Below are positions 8,868-61,825 of a stretch of 64,000 nt of DNA, piece by piece. The notes under the pieces were generated by a model. That model was given only the letters and a program-made list of their open reading frames with translations. It was not told the origin of the DNA and made no database searches. Source of the DNA: Oscillatoria sp. CS-180 (GTDB taxonomy: Bacteria > Cyanobacteriota > Cyanobacteriia > Phormidesmidales > Phormidesmidaceae). Position 1 is the first letter of the stretch. Every line of letters starts with the position of its first letter. The position numbers were made by a program, and so were the translations under genes. The DNA lies in the NCBI RefSeq assembly GCF_028330965.1, contig NZ_JAQMUB010000022.1, forward strand, positions 1 through 64,000. The letters run 5' to 3'.

Positions 8868-10970
8868 TTACGCAAACCCAATCGCGGCCACTGCAAAGTC
8901 AATCAGCTTGATTCCCACGAACGGAGCCACAATACCCCCCAAGCCATAAATGAGAATGTTGCGCCGCAATAGCTGATTGGCGCTGAGTGGCCTAAACTTG
9001 ACGCCCTTCAGCGCCAGGGGAATCAGAATTGGAATGATAATCGCGTTGTAGATCAGTGCTGAGAGGATCGCAGACTGAGCACTTGCCAATCCCATGATGT
9101 TCAGGCTGCCGATGCCCGCAGCGGCAAACATGGCTGGAATAATCGCAAAGTATTTGGCAATGTCATTTGCCAGCGAGAAGGTGGTCAGCGCCCCCCGCGT
9201 AATCAGCAACTGTTTGCCGATAGTGACTAGGTCGATCAGCTTGGTTGGGTCAGAATCCAGGTCCACCATATTGGCCGCTTCGCGAGCGGCTTGGGTGCCG
9301 GAATTCATCGCCAGGCCCACATTGGCCTGGGCTAGAGCGGGGGCGTCGTTAGTACCGTCGCCGGTCATAGCTACCAGCTTTCCCTTGGCCTGTTCTTCTT
9401 GAATTACCTGGATTTTGTCTTCTGGGGTGGCCTCGGCGATGAAGTCATCGACGCCCGCCTCTTCTGCAATCACTGATGCCGTAATCCGGTTGTCGCCCGT
9501 CAGCATGACGCTGCGAACGCCCATGCGCCGAAGCTGGTCAAAGCGATCGCGCATCCCTGGCTTGATAATGTCCTTAAGATACACCACGCCGTATAGGTCG
9601 CCGCCCATTGCCACACCCAGAGGAGTGCCCCCTAGCTTCGAGATCTTTTCGTAAGCAGCTTCGAGATCTTGACCGCAGTTGCCACCGCGCGATCGCACAA
9701 ATCCTTTCACCGCGTCCACTGCGCCCTTGCGCGCCTCACCGCCGGACGGCAGGTCGGTGCCACTCATGCGTGTCTTCGCTGAGAACTCAATCCCCTCAGC
9801 GTTGTCCAAGTTAAAGTCGGCCTTTGCCCCCATTTCTTTCGCCAGTTTGACAATGGATTTCCCCTCAGGGGTGGTGTCGAACACACTGGCCGCCAGGGCG
9901 ACCTGGGCCACCTCCGCCTCGCTGTGACCGTCGACCGGAATAAACTCCTCGGCCAGTCGGTTGCCCAGCGTGATCGTGCCGGTTTTATCCAGCACCAGGG
10001 TATTGATGTCGCCACAGGCTTCCACCGCCCGCCCAGAGGTTGCCACCACGTTAAACTGGGCTACTCGATCCATGCCCGCGATGCCGATTGCACTCAGCAG
10101 ACCGCCGATAGTAGTAGGAATTAGGGCCACTAGCAGGGCCACCAGCGTCACCACGCCCACAGGACTACCGACATAGTTTGCCACGGGCGGAATTGTGGCT
10201 ACAACAACGAGAAACACTTGGGTCAGTACCGCCAACAGCACCGTTAGCGCAATTTCATTTGGCGTCTTAGTGCGCTCGGCCCCCTCCACCAGGGCAATCA
10301 TGCGATCAAGAAAGCCCTTGCCAGGGTCGGCAGTCACCTTCAGAATCAGCTCGTCCGAAATAATCCGGGTGCCGCCGGTCACCGAGCTGGCTACGTCAGA
10401 ACCCGGTTCTTTCAAGACTGGAGCCGACTCGCCCGTGATTGCCGATTCATCCACAGAGGCAACGCCGTCCAACACTTCGCCATCGGCGGGGATGATATCA
10501 CCGGAAACAACGCGGATGCGATCGCCCTTGCGCAGCTCCGTCGAGCTAATCTCTTCTTCTGAATTATCCCCTCGTAGCCGTCGCGCCGTGGTCTCCGACT
10601 GGGTGGAGCGCAGCGAATCGGCCTGGGCCTTGCCGCGCCCCTCAGCGACCGCTTCAGCAAAATTGGCAAATACCACAGTCAAGAATAGAATCACGGTCAC
10701 CAGGCCATTAAACAGCCGTTGGTTCTCACCAGGAGTTGGCCCAAACAAGGCGGGATTCACGGTTAGCAGCGCCGTGATAACTGTCCCTACCCAGACCACA
10801 AACATGACCGGGTTGCCCAGCATGGTGCGGGGATTGAGTTTGACAAAGGCGTCTTTGAACGCCCGCTGGTAGAGGCCGCTGGTCTTCACCTTTTGCGGAT
10901 TTTGCTGTTGGTGGTGGGGCGATCGCTGGGGGGGTTGGGGCTGTTTTTTCTGCAAGGTATTGTTCGTCAT
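8868..10970 (-). CDS. kdpB: K+-transporting P-type ATPase subunit KdpB
   Basis: Catalytic subunit of the Kdp K+ pump, inner membrane. The roughly 700-residue product has the P-type ATPase signatures: actuator DESAITGES, phosphorylation motif [11 protein letters not shown], hinge [15 protein letters not shown], and membrane helices including [15 protein letters not shown]. The Met at 10970 is the first ATG; an alternative TTG at 11012 would add 14 residues. The first 30 residues are Gln/Pro-rich and probably cytosolic. Gap to kdpA is about 49 bases, consistent with one transcript. Confidence 0.97.
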
Positions 10971-52968: not shown

Positions 52969-54705
52969 ATGGTTGCACTCATTAGTTCACCCCAAGCTGC
53001 TTCTTTGCAGAGCCGATTGACGCTTCAGACTGGAGCGATCGCCAAAAATTCCACCGCAATTCGCTGCCTCGACTGGGACCGAGACCGCTTCGATGTTGAA
53101 TTTGAGCTGCAGAACGGTACCACTTACAATTCATTCCTAATTCAAGGCAGCCAAACGGCATTGATCGACACGTCTCATCGCAAGTTCGAAAATCTCTATT
53201 TTGATCGCCTCAAGGGGCTAATTGATCTTGCCGATATTGATTATCTAGTCGTTAACCACACCGAACCTGACCACAGTGGATTAATTCAATCGCTGCTGGA
53301 GCAAGCGCCTCACTTAACTGTTGTGGGATCCAAAGTGGCCATTCAGTTTTTAGAAACTCAGGTGCATTGTGATTTCAATGCCCGTCGAGTGAAAAGTGGC
53401 GATCGCCTAGATCTCGGTCAAGGTCACGAGTTGGAATTTATCTCAGCGCCCAATCTGCATTGGCCTGATACTATCCTGACCTACGACCACGGCACGCAAG
53501 TTCTCTATACCTGTGATGTCTTCGGCATGCATTACTGTGATGATGCTCTCTACGATGAAGTCCCTCAGCTGCTAGAGCCTGATTTTCAGTACTACTACGA
53601 TTGTTTGATGAAGCCTAATGCTCGCTCGGTGCTAGGAGCACTCAAGCGTATGGCTCCACTCACCATTGGTTTGGTCGCCACAGGTCATGGCCCTCTATTG
53701 CAGCACCATCGCGAAGACTGGCTGCACCGTTATCGGACGTGGAGTGAGGCCCAATCAAAAGCGGCCCCCTTCGTTGCTGTGTTATACGCAAGTGGCTATG
53801 GCTATAGTGATCGCCTGGGTCGTGCCATTGCCCAGGGTATTCGCAAAACGGGTACGGACGTCGAATTAATGGATATTCAGGAAGCGGATTCCCATGAAGT
53901 CCGGGAACTGGTGAGTGAGGCGGCTGGTTTGGTTGTGGGAATGCCACCCCAAACAGAATCAAGCGCTCATTCACAGACTATCCTCAGTTCTGTGCTGGCG
54001 ATCGCCAACAAGAAGCAAGTCATTGGTCTGTTTGAAACAGGTGGCGGACAGGACGAGCCGATTTATCCCTTGCGAAATCGATTCCGAGAACTAGGTCTAA
54101 CGGAAGCTTTTGCGCCTATCGTCATCAAATCAATTCCCTCAGAAGTGACCGACAAACTCTGTGAGGAATCTGGCACTGATTTAGGTCAACGGCTGAACCG
54201 AAGCCGCGCGAAGCAGCAGGGTAAGTCACTTGAGGCTGGCATGGATCAAGCTTTAGGACGCCTTAGTAGCGGACTGTATCTGTTAACCGTTCGCAAGGGA
54301 GATGTTACAGGGGCGATGCTAGCGTCCTGGGTCATGCAGGCTAGTTTTCAACCTTTGGGCGTTGCGATCGCGGCCGCCAAAGACCGAGCCATTGAATCGC
54401 TTCTACAAGTTGGTGACACCTTCGTCCTCAACACTTTGGAGGAAGGTAACTATCAGCATCTGATGAAACATTTCCTCAAGCGATTTCCCCCCGGTGCTGA
54501 CCGTTTCGCTGGCATTGATACTCATGCTGCCGCTAATGGCTCTCCTATCTTGGCTGAAGCTCTAGCCTATCTAGAATGCACTGTCAACCATCGTTTGGAC
54601 GCTAGTGACCACTGGATTGTATGTTGCACAGCTAAGGCTGGACGAGTCGCCAACGTGGATGGATTGACTGCTGTCCATCATCGCAGAGTCGGAAGCCATT
54701 ATTAG
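52969..54705 (+). CDS. flv4: Flavodiiron protein Flv4-type (canonical diiron ligands)
   Basis: Class C flavodiiron protein, 578 residues: metallo-beta-lactamase-like diiron domain (about 25-270), flavodoxin domain (about 275-420) and C-terminal flavin-reductase domain (about 430-575). The diiron motif is intact, HTEPDH (His97, Glu99, Asp101, His102), with further ligands in NLHWPD, CDVFGMH and ATGHGP. In photosynthesis such proteins pass electrons to O2 or protect photosystem II. It is first in the order canonical Flv, small membrane protein, non-canonical Flv, which is the flv4-sll0218-flv2 layout of Synechocystis; that layout is why I choose Flv4 rather than Flv3. Confidence 0.85.
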   Translation: MVALISSPQAASLQSRLTLQTGAIAKNSTAIRCLDWDRDRFDVEFELQNGTTYNSFLIQGSQTALIDTSHRKFENLYFDRLKGLIDLADIDYLVVNHTEPDHSGLIQSLLEQAPHLTVVGSKVAIQFLETQVHCDFNARRVKSGDRLDLGQGHELEFISAPNLHWPDTILTYDHGTQVLYTCDVFGMHYCDDALYDEVPQLLEPDFQYYYDCLMKPNARSVLGALKRMAPLTIGLVATGHGPLLQHHREDWLHRYRTWSEAQSKAAPFVAVLYASGYGYSDRLGRAIAQGIRKTGTDVELMDIQEADSHEVRELVSEAAGLVVGMPPQTESSAHSQTILSSVLAIANKKQVIGLFETGGGQDEPIYPLRNRFRELGLTEAFAPIVIKSIPSEVTDKLCEESGTDLGQRLNRSRAKQQGKSLEAGMDQALGRLSSGLYLLTVRKGDVTGAMLASWVMQASFQPLGVAIAAAKDRAIESLLQVGDTFVLNTLEEGNYQHLMKHFLKRFPPGADRFAGIDTHAAANGSPILAEALAYLECTVNHRLDASDHWIVCCTAKAGRVANVDGLTAVHHRRVGSHY

Positions 54706-54901
54706 AACCCACAGGACTGATGCAAGCTATTCGACTGTATAGCCAACGTCAAGGAGTAGGCATTGCTCCACGTTGCCTGTAGATAGTCAGCATAAGTCCC
54801 AACCCATCAATTCGTCGAAGCGCTGCGAATAACCAGTTACGCCGTTAGGACTTCGGCGGCATTCACCTGCTAACCCTATCGCTGTTTAAGCCACTGATAT
54901 C

Positions 54902-55423
54902 ATGCAACCCATCTCATCACCTTCTTCCCGTTGGACCAACTGGCTCAATGGCGCTCACGTCGTTCGTATTTTGGAACTGGTACAAGATCTAATTGTCATT
55001 TCGCTCTGCATTGGTCTGTTTAGCTTTATGGTGATGCAGCTGCGAGAAATGTTTCTATCGCTGCTACCGCCTCTGAACTTTCCTCATGTCACCGCAGATA
55101 TCTTATTTCTGCTAATCATGGTGGAGCTCTTTCGCTTGCTGATTATTTATTTGAAGGAGCATCGCGTATCGATCGGAGTCGCTGTAGAAGTCTCCATCGT
55201 CTCTGTGCTCCGAGAAATCATTGTGCACGGCATTCTTGAAACTCCTTGGGTTCAAGTCCTTGCTGCCTGTTCCTTTCTGCTGGTTTTGGGAGCCTTATTG
55301 GTGATTCGTGTGTGGATTCCACCAACTTTTGATGGTATCGACCCAGAGCAACAAATTTCTCGCCGTCATCGAATGCGATTTGCTCAAGATTTGAATGAAG
55401 TGAGTAGCAGGTCGGACCAGTGA
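54902..55423 (+). CDS. Sll0218-like PsiE-family membrane protein
   Basis: A 173-residue membrane protein with about four helices (LIVISLCIGLFSFMV, DILFLLIMVELFRLLIIYL, and VLAACSFLLVLGALLVI) and conserved VAVEVSIVSVLREIIVHG, a PsiE-type feature. Same size and position as Synechocystis Sll0218, which sits between flv4 and flv2 and helps photosystem II assembly or stability. Gaps of 196 and 91 bases to its neighbours fit one operon. Confidence 0.85.
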   Translation: MQPISSPSSRWTNWLNGAHVVRILELVQDLIVISLCIGLFSFMVMQLREMFLSLLPPLNFPHVTADILFLLIMVELFRLLIIYLKEHRVSIGVAVEVSIVSVLREIIVHGILETPWVQVLAACSFLLVLGALLVIRVWIPPTFDGIDPEQQISRRHRMRFAQDLNEVSSRSDQ

Positions 55424-55514
55424 CCTCACGCTTGTCTCCAATAGCTTCCGCTCGCTTTTAGTGCCTTGATTCAGCCAGCCGTCCTGTCTTCTTTGCCCAT
55501 CACGTGACAATTCT

Positions 55515-57269
55515 ATGACTTACTCCACAGCGCCAAACCCCGTCTCTCTGCCTACCGCACCCCGCCCGCGAGATGTTCAAGTTGCTGACATCGGACAGCA
55601 GACTCAGGTCTTGCGATCGCGAGCCTGGGAACGCCTCAAGTTTGAAGTTGAATATGCTCGTCGCCACGGCACTACGGCTAACTCCTATCTCATTCGTGGA
55701 AACAAAACGGCCCTTCTCGATCCGCCTGGCGAATCCTTCACGACGATTTACCTAGAAGCACTACAACAGCAAATCGACCCCAAGGACATCAGCTACATCA
55801 TCACCAGCCATGTCAATTCCAACCGCATGGCGACCCTGAAGCAATTGCGAGAACTTGCTCCCCAGGCCATCTTTGTCTGTTCGCGGCCAGCTGCTAATAC
55901 GCTTAAAAATACTGCGATCGTCCCAGAGGAATCTCTATACCCAGTGCGCTCTGGCGACAGTTTAGAGTTGGGACAAGGCCATCGGCTGGAGTTTATCACC
56001 GTCCCGACACCTCGCTGGCCAGATGGATTGTGCACTTACGATGCAGCAACAAAAATTCTCTACAGCGATAAACTGTTTGGTGCCCATATCTGTAGTGAAG
56101 CCCTGTGGGATGAGAGTTGGCGTCAGCTAGAGGCAGATCGCCGCTACTATTTTGATTGTCTGCACGCGCTTCAGGCTCGCCAAGTTGAAACGATGTTGAA
56201 TCGCTTAGAGCCGTTTTCTCTACAGTGTATTGCCCCTGGTCATGGGCCACTGGTACGCTACAGCCTCAGTCGGTTGTGTCAGGATTATCGCCAATGGTGC
56301 CAGCAGCAAATTCATCGGACGCTGCGAGTGGCGCTGTTGTACACCTCAGCTTATGGCAACACCGCTAAAGTTGCTGATGCGATCGCGAAAGGTCTGATTG
56401 CAGCTGATCTAGCAGTCGAATCGATCAACTGCGAATTCACCAGTCCTGACGAAATTGCCCAAACGGTTAAAGCCTGCGATGGCTTCATCATCGGTTCACC
56501 TACATTGGGAGGACATGCTCCGGTGCAAATTCAAACGGCTTTAGGTACTATTTTGGCGAATGTTTCCAAGACAAAACCCGCTGGTGTGTTCGGTTCCTAT
56601 GGTTGGAGTGGAGAAGCGATCGACCTGTTGGAACAGAAATTGCGAGATGCGGGCTATCGATTCGGGTTTGAGCCTATCCGTGTGCGCTTTACCCCAAATC
56701 AAACTGCTTTAACAGACTGCGAAACTGCTGGAACGCAATTTGCTCAACGACTTCGTAAGCGATTAAAACAGCAGGTCTCTCGCCAAGCGATAACCACCGC
56801 GCAAGCTGATCGGACTGCTCAGGCAATAGGGCGCATTATCGGATCGCTTTGTGTCGCAACAGTTCAGCAGGACAATATTTACAGCGGCATCTTAACCACC
56901 TGGATTTCTCAAGCCAGCTTTAGCCCACCGGGTCTGATGCTAGCGCTACCATCTCACGAATCCGCATTTGGCAATTTGCAGCCAGGTCAATCCTTGGTCC
57001 TCAACATTCTGAAAGAAGGACGCACTGTTCGACGTCATTTTACGCACCAGCAAGCGACTCAATTCACTGACTGCCCATTAGCGACTCAAACATCTGAAAA
57101 CGGCGGTCTGATTATCGCCGATGCCCTCGCCTATCTGGAATGTACGGTTGAATCGGTCACATCCACTGGAGATCATCAACTCATCTATGCCAAAGTTCTC
57201 ACAGGCAACCTGCTAGAAGCGGACGGCATGCCAGCCCTGCAGCATCGTAAATCGGGCAGTCAATATTAG
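55515..57269 (+). CDS. flv2: Flavodiiron protein Flv2-type (non-canonical diiron ligands)
   Basis: A 584-residue class C flavodiiron protein with the same three domains as Flv4: diiron-like domain, flavodoxin (YTSAYGNTAKVADAIAKGL), and flavin reductase (GILTTWISQASFSPPGLML). The metal motif is altered to HVNSNR at residues 99-104, replacing Glu, Asp and His, and PRWPD replaces the LHWPD of its partner, so it should not hold a normal Fe-Fe site. This is the partner type known from Flv1/Flv2, which work as heteromers with a canonical subunit. Last gene of the flv operon. Confidence 0.85.
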   Translation: MTYSTAPNPVSLPTAPRPRDVQVADIGQQTQVLRSRAWERLKFEVEYARRHGTTANSYLIRGNKTALLDPPGESFTTIYLEALQQQIDPKDISYIITSHVNSNRMATLKQLRELAPQAIFVCSRPAANTLKNTAIVPEESLYPVRSGDSLELGQGHRLEFITVPTPRWPDGLCTYDAATKILYSDKLFGAHICSEALWDESWRQLEADRRYYFDCLHALQARQVETMLNRLEPFSLQCIAPGHGPLVRYSLSRLCQDYRQWCQQQIHRTLRVALLYTSAYGNTAKVADAIAKGLIAADLAVESINCEFTSPDEIAQTVKACDGFIIGSPTLGGHAPVQIQTALGTILANVSKTKPAGVFGSYGWSGEAIDLLEQKLRDAGYRFGFEPIRVRFTPNQTALTDCETAGTQFAQRLRKRLKQQVSRQAITTAQADRTAQAIGRIIGSLCVATVQQDNIYSGILTTWISQASFSPPGLMLALPSHESAFGNLQPGQSLVLNILKEGRTVRRHFTHQQATQFTDCPLATQTSENGGLIIADALAYLECTVESVTSTGDHQLIYAKVLTGNLLEADGMPALQHRKSGSQY

Positions 57270-59087: not shown

Positions 59088-59792
59088 CTAATCCCCACTC
59101 CCATTGAACTGTACTGACGTTACCCGATAGGCGCAACGTCGGGAACCTTCAAGAATATGCTCTGTGCGCTCAATGTCGACATGTTCTCCTAGTACAGCCT
59201 GAAAGACTTCCAGTTCCCTAGAACATAATCCAGTGCATGCTTCTGCAGCGGCACAAATAGGACAGTGATTTTCAACAAGCAAGATCGAACCATCTGCTTG
59301 AGGCAGCACATCGGCCATGTATCCCTCGGTGGTGCGGATATCAGCCAGTGTTTCCAACTGCGCTTGTAAAGAGTTTTGCTCCTTCATCTGGGAGCGATAG
59401 GCATCAAGCTGTTCTCGGGTACGGATATCAAGCAGGCGGTTCAACCCTTCTTCGCCAAACGCTTCACTGACAGATTGAATCAGGCTGAGGGTTAGCTCAG
59501 CATAACCTTCTGGAAAAAAGCGATCAGCGGCAGCAGTCAAATGCCACAGTTTAGCGGGTCGCCCCATAGGACGAGCTTCTTCCTGATAGGCCACTAAGGC
59601 TTCATCTTGCAAAGCATAGAGGTGTTGCCTCACCGCCATTGCCGAAATACTAAGCTGCTCTGCAATGGCATGGGCATCCATCGCACCGGATTGCTTTAGC
59701 AAATGGACGATCGCCCGTTTAGTGCGAGGCTCATTCTTTTTGCTGCGCTTTGTATTAGTCGACTTGGACTTTTTAGGTGATTTAGATGCCAT
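59088..59792 (-). CDS. SufR-like HTH regulator with C-terminal Cys cluster
   Basis: A 234-residue DNA-binding protein. A Lys-rich tail is followed by a winged helix about 24-90 (AIAEQLSISAMAVRQHLYAL). The C-terminal domain has Cys177, 180, 186, 190 and 220 in ENHCPICAAAEACTGLC and RRCAYRV, a pattern of the SufR/DeoR-type redox regulators that bind an Fe-S cluster. Unlike SufR it is not next to the suf genes but divergent from an MFS exporter, and the spacer has two identical-type operators (59803 and 59850) that differ from the SufR motif of Synechocystis. It is therefore likely a local repressor of the transporter. Confidence 0.8.
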   Translation of the reverse strand: MASKSPKKSKSTNTKRSKKNEPRTKRAIVHLLKQSGAMDAHAIAEQLSISAMAVRQHLYALQDEALVAYQEEARPMGRPAKLWHLTAAADRFFPEGYAELTLSLIQSVSEAFGEEGLNRLLDIRTREQLDAYRSQMKEQNSLQAQLETLADIRTTEGYMADVLPQADGSILLVENHCPICAAAEACTGLCSRELEVFQAVLGEHVDIERTEHILEGSRRCAYRVTSVQFNGSGD

Positions 59793-59802
59793 GGCTACAT
59801 TC

Positions 59803-59818
59803 TAAAGAAAAGTCTTTA
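59803..59818. promoter_or_regulatory. Operator 1, inverted repeat
   Basis: TAAAGAAAAGTCTTTA: half-sites TAAAGA and TCTTTA around a 4-nt centre, 11 bases before the regulator start. Confidence 0.6.
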
Positions 59819-59849
59819 CAAAGTCGAGGCAGAAGGCTAGATTACTTTC

Positions 59850-59865
59850 TAAAGGATTTTCTTTA
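59850..59865. promoter_or_regulatory. Operator 2, inverted repeat
   Basis: TAAAGGATTTTCTTTA matches the reverse complement of operator 1 at 14 of 16 positions; it lies 47 bases (centre to centre) away, between the divergent regulator and MFS genes. Confidence 0.6.
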
Positions 59866-60003
59866 CTAAGTTGATTGGGCTATCAACGACCAGTACACAA
59901 GGGGATTGCCAATGAGAAAAGGACTAGGGGATTCGCTCAGTCCAGAAAACATGATGCCTGCACCGGCAGACATTGGGGTCCAGGACGAAGGAGGTTGAGA
60001 AAG

Positions 60004-61293
60004 ATGCGTTTTACTGCTTGGTGGCCTCAACTGAGTCCACAGGTCTGGATACTTGTAGCGGGGCGGTTTCTCTCGCAAATTGGCTCTGGAATAGTGCTGT
60101 TTTATGTCCCTATTTATTTCGTTAACCAGGTGAGGTTATCGGCGGCCCAGGTTGGTTTGGGCTTAAGTAGTGCAGCAATGGCTGGTGCAGTCGGCTTTTT
60201 TCTGGCCGGCGCAATAACCGATTCTCCGCGATGGGGGCGTCGCCGCACGCTCATGCTCTCCTGCGTTATTTCTGTGTTTGCGGATGGGGTGTTTTGGTTT
60301 GCCCAAAGTCTGCCGTTACTGATCTTAGCCAGCGTATTGATGGGGTTAGGGGATAGTCTCTATTGGCCGGCATCCGGTGCTGCCATTACGGATGAATCAC
60401 CCGATCATCAGCGGGAAGAAGCCTTTGCCGTTTCGGGTTTAGCAGATGCTTTAGGGTCGGGATTAGGCATCGTTCTGGGTGGACTGCTAATTGCGACTGC
60501 CAATGGTTATCGATTGTTGTTTGTTGTGGATGGCGTCACATTCTTGATGTTTTTGGGGGTGCTGACTGTCATGGTCAAAGACACTTATGTTCAGCCTTCT
60601 CAAAATGCAACTCATAGCGGTTTCAAAGCATGGAGATTAGCATTACTGGACCCTGTATTTTTGGGGTTTGCGATCGCGAATATCTTGTTTACGACTTACA
60701 TCAATCTGATGGAAAGTACGCTACCCCTATACCTCACGAATTTTGTCCAACCCTCCTCGTGGCTAAGCCTAACGCCAGAGAATATCGGCATTCTTTTTTC
60801 AGTCTACGTGTTGATAGTGGCCGTGCTGCAAGTGCCTGCCGTTCGCGTCTTACAACGCTATCAGCGTGCGTCTGTCTTAATCCTATCGATGATGTCGTGG
60901 GGCGCTGGCTTTCTCTTAATCTGGCTGGTCGGTTGGGGTGCTGGATGGCAGCTTATTTTGATTGTGTTGGCGATCGCAATATTGGCGATCGCGAATGTTA
61001 TTTACAACCCCTTTGCCGTGGCTCTGGTAACCGAATTAGCTCCCAAGCCCTCTCTTGGCATTTACTTATCGCTAAATGCTCAATGTTGGACAGTTGGTTA
61101 CTTAATTGGCCCGTTGGTAGGAGGGTGGGCACTGACTCAAGGTGAAACAACAGCCCATACACTTTGGGCTGTTGTTTCTTTCAGTACGCTGATTGGAGCA
61201 CTTGTTCTCAAGCAGCTTGCCAAGTTCCACAAGAAGGACCTTGCTTCGAAGCAAAACATCGAACCGCTTGACTACCATTCCTATTCAGACTGA
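60004..61293 (+). CDS. MFS transporter, probable drug exporter
   Basis: A 429-residue major facilitator with 12 predicted helices. The loop 2-3 signature GAITDSPRWGRRRTLML and the motif ALGSGLGIVLGGLL near helix 5 fit drug/H+ antiporters. ATG 60004 is set by an excellent GGAGG (about 59990) spaced 9 bases away; the longer frame from 59875 is a leader without hydrophobic character. Divergent from the SufR-like regulator, which probably controls it. Substrate unknown. Confidence 0.9.
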   Translation: MRFTAWWPQLSPQVWILVAGRFLSQIGSGIVLFYVPIYFVNQVRLSAAQVGLGLSSAAMAGAVGFFLAGAITDSPRWGRRRTLMLSCVISVFADGVFWFAQSLPLLILASVLMGLGDSLYWPASGAAITDESPDHQREEAFAVSGLADALGSGLGIVLGGLLIATANGYRLLFVVDGVTFLMFLGVLTVMVKDTYVQPSQNATHSGFKAWRLALLDPVFLGFAIANILFTTYINLMESTLPLYLTNFVQPSSWLSLTPENIGILFSVYVLIVAVLQVPAVRVLQRYQRASVLILSMMSWGAGFLLIWLVGWGAGWQLILIVLAIAILAIANVIYNPFAVALVTELAPKPSLGIYLSLNAQCWTVGYLIGPLVGGWALTQGETTAHTLWAVVSFSTLIGALVLKQLAKFHKKDLASKQNIEPLDYHSYSD

Positions 61294-61470: not shown

Positions 61471-61825
61471 GTTCAATGGGGTTGTACTTCGAGGTGTAGG
61501 GCGGATATCGACTCATCCAGCGGTGAGCCAGCGGTGTGATGCTTGACAACGCGCAAGAAGGCTTCACTCAAACCCTCGATGGTGTCCAAGGCTCTTTTGC
61601 GGCCACCCCCCGGTTGGTGAATGCGCTCAGCGCTTGCTCGTCTTGAAGCTCAGCTAGGCCACGACGAACGGGTTTAGCATGACAACCAAACAAGTTTGTG
61701 ATGTAGCTCATCCCGCCATGGCCTAACTTCAGGGCTTCAATAGCGGCATAGCGACGATCCTTTTCCGACAAGGATTGGTAGTATCTTTGCATCTGCTCTT
61801 CAAGCTCGGGAGAATAGCGCTGCAT
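61469..61825 (-). pseudogene. ISAzo13-like transposase remnant
   Basis: An 85-codon start (MQRYSPELEEQMQRYYQ, LSEKDRRYAAIEALKLGHGG, MSYITNLFGCHAKPVRRGL) matches the N-terminus of ISAzo13-type transposases. A frameshift then gives LSEAFLRVVKHHTAGSPLDE, and another the C-terminal motif RYPPYTSKYNPIEHR; the middle of the transposase is deleted. The last codons run straight into the MazE remnant, so an insertion plus deletion probably destroyed the antitoxin gene. No terminal inverted repeats found. Confidence 0.75.

Follow-up and report, generated by a model that had tools for sequence, protein, structure and literature searches.

Paired operator-like sites beside a SufR-related regulator and its relatives in several phyla suggest a stress or detoxification switch not described before

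In Oscillatoria sp. CS-180 (GCF_028330965.1, genome 6.5 Mb), the genes for a winged-helix regulator and an MFS exporter diverge from a 211-base spacer (regulator ATG at 59792 on the minus strand, MFS ATG at 60004 on the plus strand) that holds two inverted repeats. Which protein reads these repeats, and what would it control through them? The window analysed here is the stretch of 64,000 nucleotides at positions 1-64,000 of contig NZ_JAQMUB010000022.1, and the features that bear on the question are collected in Table 1. The twin 16-bp repeats that the first-pass annotation had placed in the spacer are both exact, and they are spaced 47 bp apart, centre to centre. The operator pattern given there, TAAAGR-N4-YCTTTA, is better written as TAAAG-N6-CTTTA with a W-rich centre, and at site 2 it extends to TTTnTAAAG-W6-CTTTAnAAA, the extended palindrome occupying 59846-59869. 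GGAGG precedes the exporter's ATG at 59990-59994.

Table 1. Coordinates in the window of the regulator, the exporter and the features between them.
Feature	Position	Strand	Sequence, layout or evidence
SufR-related winged-helix regulator, 234 aa	59088..59792	-	HTH residues 24-68; PF01022 above cut-off; TIGR02702; alignments; tree
Regulator promoter (predicted)	59799..59827	-	TCGACT-17-TAGAAT; scan; TTGAC part conserved; very short leader
Operator site 1 (predicted)	59803..59818		TAAAGAAAAGTCTTTA; within regulator -35/-10 spacer, overlaps exporter -35
Exporter promoter (predicted)	59815..59843	+	TTTACA-17-TAGATT; scan; same layout in 45 loci
Conserved right extension of site 1	59819..59827		CAAAGTCGA, consensus CAAAGTCAA; near-invariant in 30 non-redundant loci
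Operator site 2 (predicted)	59850..59865		TAAAGGATTTTCTTTA; at exporter's expected start point
28-codon ORF, SDR-gene relic	59912..59998	+	3' part from 59944 is the SDR end
MFS exporter, 429 aa	60004..61293	+	PF07690 (MFS_1), 1.6e-47, 162.6 bits, cut-off 33.4

A mechanical promoter scan of the spacer found two promoters where 0.2 were expected, and the sites stand in close register with both (this arrangement of twin sites about a promoter is henceforth referred to as a clamp). Besides the overlaps listed in Table 1, site 1 shares two bases with the regulator's -10, and site 2 starts six bases 3' of the exporter's -10 and covers the expected start point. The conserved extension of site 1 comprises the end of the exporter's -35 and, on the opposite strand, the regulator's own -35. 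Among the 45 loci in which twin sites were found by a looser score, the promoter spacing is 17 or 18 in 44, and site 2 lies five to seven bases past the -10 in 33. The GTCAA that follows site 1 is absent at the clamps of Rieske-fusion genes described below, which face no regulator promoter, and this indicates that GTCAA, which is TTGAC on the other strand, is the regulator's own -35.

The sequence evidence makes it very probable that the twin sites are operators of the adjacent SufR-related regulator. A dimeric winged-helix repressor of the SufR lineage would place one dimer on each site, and the exporter's sigma-70 promoter would be held from both sides, with the -35 blocked at site 1 and the start point at site 2. 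Occupancy of site 1 would also close the regulator's own promoter, for which reason autorepression is proposed. The simplest reading of the layout would be that one promoter is clamped by two dimers, of which one also closes the promoter of the regulator; less probably, the regulator would activate at site 1 instead of repressing.

What a repressor at these sites might sense is suggested by its C-terminal domain, which aligns over its whole length with the Fe-S domain of SufR. The five cysteines previously ascribed to this domain were located at C177, C180, C186, C190 and C220, and are kept in all 84 non-SufR rows of an 85-row alignment (C-x2-C-x5-C-x3-C-x29-C, window numbering). SufR has counterparts of C177, C190 and C220 together with a third cysteine of its own, and is without C180 and C186. 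The published cluster motif of SufR, C-x12-C-x13-C-x14-C (PMC8593673), does not occur in the regulator, in which C177-x12-C190 and C220 are kept, the third cysteine is gone and C180 and C186 are extra. In the M. tuberculosis protein Rv1460, the three shared cysteines correspond to C203, C216 and C244, which are required for function, and C242 is dispensable (PMC6034842). With the three shared positions present and the third SufR cysteine gone, the ligand positions are thus kept and the complete SufR signature is absent. The five-cysteine domain, which combines the three SufR/Rv1460 ligand cysteines with the CxxC-x5-C pair, would most likely hold an Fe-S cluster, and we lean slightly towards Fe-S-based sensing by the regulator. 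The same repressor acting on the same operators through a thiol or metal (zinc/cadmium) switch, with no Fe-S cluster, is a possible but rather unlikely alternative. The CxxC-x5-C-x3-C spacing, which SufR lacks, would also be compatible with a metal or disulfide switch, and a cysteine-rich domain without the third SufR cysteine might be a zinc binder or rely solely on its thiols. An AlphaFold model of the regulator (mean pLDDT 78.5, pTM 0.54) was searched with Foldseek against the PDB, and its top matches were winged-helix proteins such as the zinc-responsive ZitR, which would favour a metal switch, though they matched through the winged helix only; for the cysteine domain the same search found no solved fold. 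Against such a switch, the three positions needed in SufR and Rv1460 are kept in every aligned row of the clade, and the alignment with the Fe-S domain of SufR runs its full length. For a sensor of the Fe-S kind, damage to or loss of the cluster, or modification of thiols by redox-active or electrophilic compounds, would lead to release of the DNA, and release would turn on export here and detoxification enzymes in relatives.

Conservation of the pair was assessed at 80 orthologue loci that were fetched by protein similarity alone, with the motif unused; twin sites were defined as a pair of TAAAG-N6-CTTTA, each with at most one mismatch, 40-62 bp apart. Sites missing upstream of orthologues had been named at the outset as the result that would speak against the proposal, and the pair is present at 29 of the 36 tabulated cyanobacterial orthologue loci, 25 of these 29 having a divergent gene nearby. 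The other seven lack an intact pair, and no site of any kind was found at two loci (L077 and L082). With the looser score, the pair appears in 45 of 81 loci (window included), in 29 of them at 47 or 48 bp. Twin sites also occur in Evansella, Alphaproteobacteria and Planctomycetota, and the Paenibacillus loci carry a variant, TAAA(C/T)A...TGTT(T/G)A, at the same two positions. Bases outside the selected arms are conserved like the arms themselves (ACAAAGTCAA after site 1, TTTn ahead of site 2 and nAAA behind it), and the site centres vary between A and T across loci.

The pair is equally specific at the level of whole genomes. Two of 386 genomes of the phylum contain the exact twin pattern (CS-180, once, and G385), in both cases at the regulator orthologue, and the reversed-pattern control gave none in the 386. 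The regulator is carried at 61% identity or more by four of these genomes; G209 and G297, which have the regulator and no exact pair, each retain an intact site next to a degenerate one. Among 36 genomes picked for carrying the regulator, 25 have exact twins and the reversed control again gave 0. It is very unlikely that the sites serve another regulator and lie beside this gene incidentally: some of the neighbours in relatives are indeed regulators (AraC-like, HxlR-like), but from phylum to phylum the sites keep the present regulator as their only constant partner while the target genes change, and in the 386 genomes the twin pattern was found only where it is present.

Variation in the sites offers a candidate specificity residue. 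Recognition-helix residue 59 (loci L050-L129) is Tyr or Asn, going with CTTTA or GTTTA half-sites respectively: at site position 12, C goes with Tyr in 76 of 81 sites and G with Asn in 45 of 45, a pairing that is confounded by phylogeny, as the Asn set appears to be essentially the Paenibacillus clade, and that we treat as a lead only. Several Paenibacillus loci (L085, L089-L092, L094, L101, L102 and others) have an additional palindrome, GTATCCGGATA(C), just downstream of site 2, which is probably the operator of another regulator. A sister group (L046, L047, L048, L141, L142) is marked by HLQ in the helix and shares the five cysteines, and in the two of its loci that were checked (L141, L142) no TAAAG sites were found.

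The regulator had been described as SufR-related, a view that its match to the SufR model, the three shared cysteines and the order of winged helix and cysteine domain bear out. It matches TIGR02702 (SufR_cyano) over nearly its full length with 136.4 bits (1e-39), below the cut-off of 178.8, and reaches 30.5 of the 55 bits required by the ArsR/SmtB metalloregulator model NF033788. The true SufR of this genome scores 314.4 bits on TIGR02702, adjoins sufB and has three CAAC-N6-GTTG sites in its spacer; the regulator is flanked on one side by the MFS exporter, sufB adjoining the other paralogue instead. CAAC-N6-GTTG was present at 17 of 17 SufR genes and TAAAG-N6-CTTTA at 0 of 17. When 88 sequences were placed in a maximum-likelihood tree, a long 100/100 branch parted SufR from the regulator clade, which was sampled here from cyanobacteria, Paenibacillus and other Bacillota, Alphaproteobacteria, Planctomycetota and Verrucomicrobiota. 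Judged by its separate clade, its sub-cut-off score and its other operator, the regulator is not SufR. That it is a true SufR orthologue governing Fe-S biogenesis, as the significance of the TIGR02702 match might suggest, is scarcely credible when the score is below the curated cut-off, the 314-bit protein adjoins sufB, the 100/100 branch separates the two and the operators differ. No prior description of this regulator clade or switch was found in the open-access papers searched, which is weak evidence that none exists.

The single-site pattern occurs at four places in the 6.5-Mb genome, compared with eight for the reversed control, and the two exact matches outside the spacer (C25, C87) lie inside coding genes; because a single site is this common, the evidential weight rests on the pair. 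Single sites of this kind do arise by chance, but the notion that the twin sites are chance AT-rich palindromes is refuted beyond serious doubt by dozens of loci that conserve the pair together with its spacing, its flanks and its register with the promoter, and by a reversed control of 0. When the CS-180 genome was scanned for a wider regulon with the extended motif (up to three mismatches), 50 matches were obtained per strand as opposed to 58 for the reversed control, and the two sites of the spacer were the best matches. Since no excess is seen beyond its own two sites, the switch seems confined to its own locus in CS-180, and as far as the sites tell they point to the exporter alone as the target.

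The exporter itself has multidrug and efflux models as its top NCBIfam matches, all of them below cut-off, and no specific subfamily was reached. The earlier proposal of an efflux circuit fits the predicted MFS target here and is too narrow for the orthologues, in which the same clamp is also found at SDR, Rieske-fusion, glyoxalase-like, RidA, cupin and rubredoxin-like genes. The divergent targets in relatives comprise MFS proteins, an SDR followed by a MATE exporter, and these enzymes; the MFS proteins fall in several families with little mutual similarity (the window type, a Paenibacillus type, L086, and an L069/L075 type). This mix of exporters with small oxidoreductase or detoxification enzymes suggests that the switch responds to toxic compounds, probably redox-active or electrophilic ones.

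Clamps also occur in trans. In a background scan of 880 kb of orthologue flanks, only four pairs lay away from the regulator, all directly upstream of a Rieske-fusion gene, with the same -35/-10 layout and a spacing of 46 bp. The fusion gene product has 590 residues, and no Pfam match was found for its C-terminal 480. Further clamps came from whole-genome scans: one faces a distant Rieske gene (L157), another an SDR-MFS operon (L159) whose MFS protein starts, at its N terminus, with nearly the same sequence as the exporter of the window. The second twin clamps at Rieske-fusion promoters are at L054:3437, L060:8385, L061:8518, L070:1002 and L157:1501. Two further genomes each have a second twin clamp elsewhere (G437:C70 for L147, G438:C188 for L153); the partner in L147 is rubredoxin-like, and the clamp in L153 faces a second regulator copy, with a Rieske partner.

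The L159 operon also bears on the history of the CS-180 locus. Positions 59944-60048 of the window are ~86% identical to its SDR/MFS junction (score 135, shuffles at most 28); for the 5' part of the 28-codon ORF the similarity to SDR is suggestive only (score 27, shuffles at most 29). At the same place as this relic, L040 has a longer, decayed SDR (9673-9948). An apparent decay series of the SDR between operators and exporter thereby runs from intact (L159:1611-2330) through truncated (L040:9673-9948) to the 28-codon relic (window 59912-59998). The exporter probably once followed the SDR in an SDR-MFS operon, and loss of the SDR left it alone under the clamp. Elsewhere in the window, an ISAzo13-family transposase fragment (61568-61825) lies downstream of the exporter, and domain matches place two flavodiiron proteins on either side of a PsiE-family membrane protein at 52969-57269, an arrangement that we take to resemble cyanobacterial flv4-sll0218-flv2.

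Overall, the sites, their overlap with promoters, their conservation, their co-occurrence with the regulator clade and, in some genomes, the extra clamps in trans are seen in the sequence, and from them we infer binding, repression, cluster and signal. The best explanation, which we consider likely, is that the regulator would repress both its own gene and a detoxification/efflux cassette, and would sense through an Fe-S cluster (or thiols). Whether this extends to a hitherto undescribed, SufR-derived family of five-cysteine repressors that occurs in five or more bacterial phyla, with each member controlling its own local detoxification/efflux cassette by a standard two-operator clamp and with an Fe-S fold rewired from Fe-S biogenesis to the sensing of toxic redox-active or electrophilic compounds, we regard as evenly balanced. 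For a family whose name would wrongly suggest Fe-S biogenesis, the analysis predicts the operator, the promoter logic and the regulon. The natural specificity switch from CAAC to AAAG, at equal spacing and in one genome, is useful for understanding how SufR-type proteins read DNA, and reuse of the SufR sensor domain for the detection of toxic compounds becomes directly testable.

Among known systems, SufR (Synechocystis sll0088; TIGR02702) shares with the regulator the winged helix and C-terminal cysteine domain, the divergent gene pair, the layout for autoregulation and the cysteines C177, C190 and C220. The operator had been called unlike that of SufR, which is true of the half-site, CAAC in SufR and AAAG here, and not of the architecture, as CAAC-N6-GTTG and AAAG-N6-CTTT are both palindromes with 4-base half-sites and a 6-base spacer. 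The two also differ in their recognition helices (VQAIRRHLKDL in SufR, AMAVRQHLYAL in the regulator) and in their targets, suf as opposed to predicted detoxification/efflux genes, and the regulator clade occurs outside cyanobacteria as well. Rv1460, the SufR of M. tuberculosis, has the three cysteines as C-x12-C-x27-C, compared with C-x12-C-x29-C in the regulator, and all three are essential there (PMC6034842); unlike the regulator, it heads the suf operon. ArsR/SmtB metalloregulators have the PF01022 HTH and the divergent exporter layout in common with the regulator, which is far larger and has a C-terminal SufR-type domain. SoxR, of the MerR family, is an Fe-S sensor thought to turn on exporters and oxidoreductases against redox-active compounds. 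As a lead only, SoxR-type regulons resemble the present one in combining an Fe-S sensor with exporter and oxidoreductase targets; the MerR family is unrelated and has another promoter logic, and SoxR activates whereas the regulator would repress. The switch is best read as a putative variant of the SufR plan, with a shared architecture, a different half-site, cysteine set and regulon, and a wider host range.
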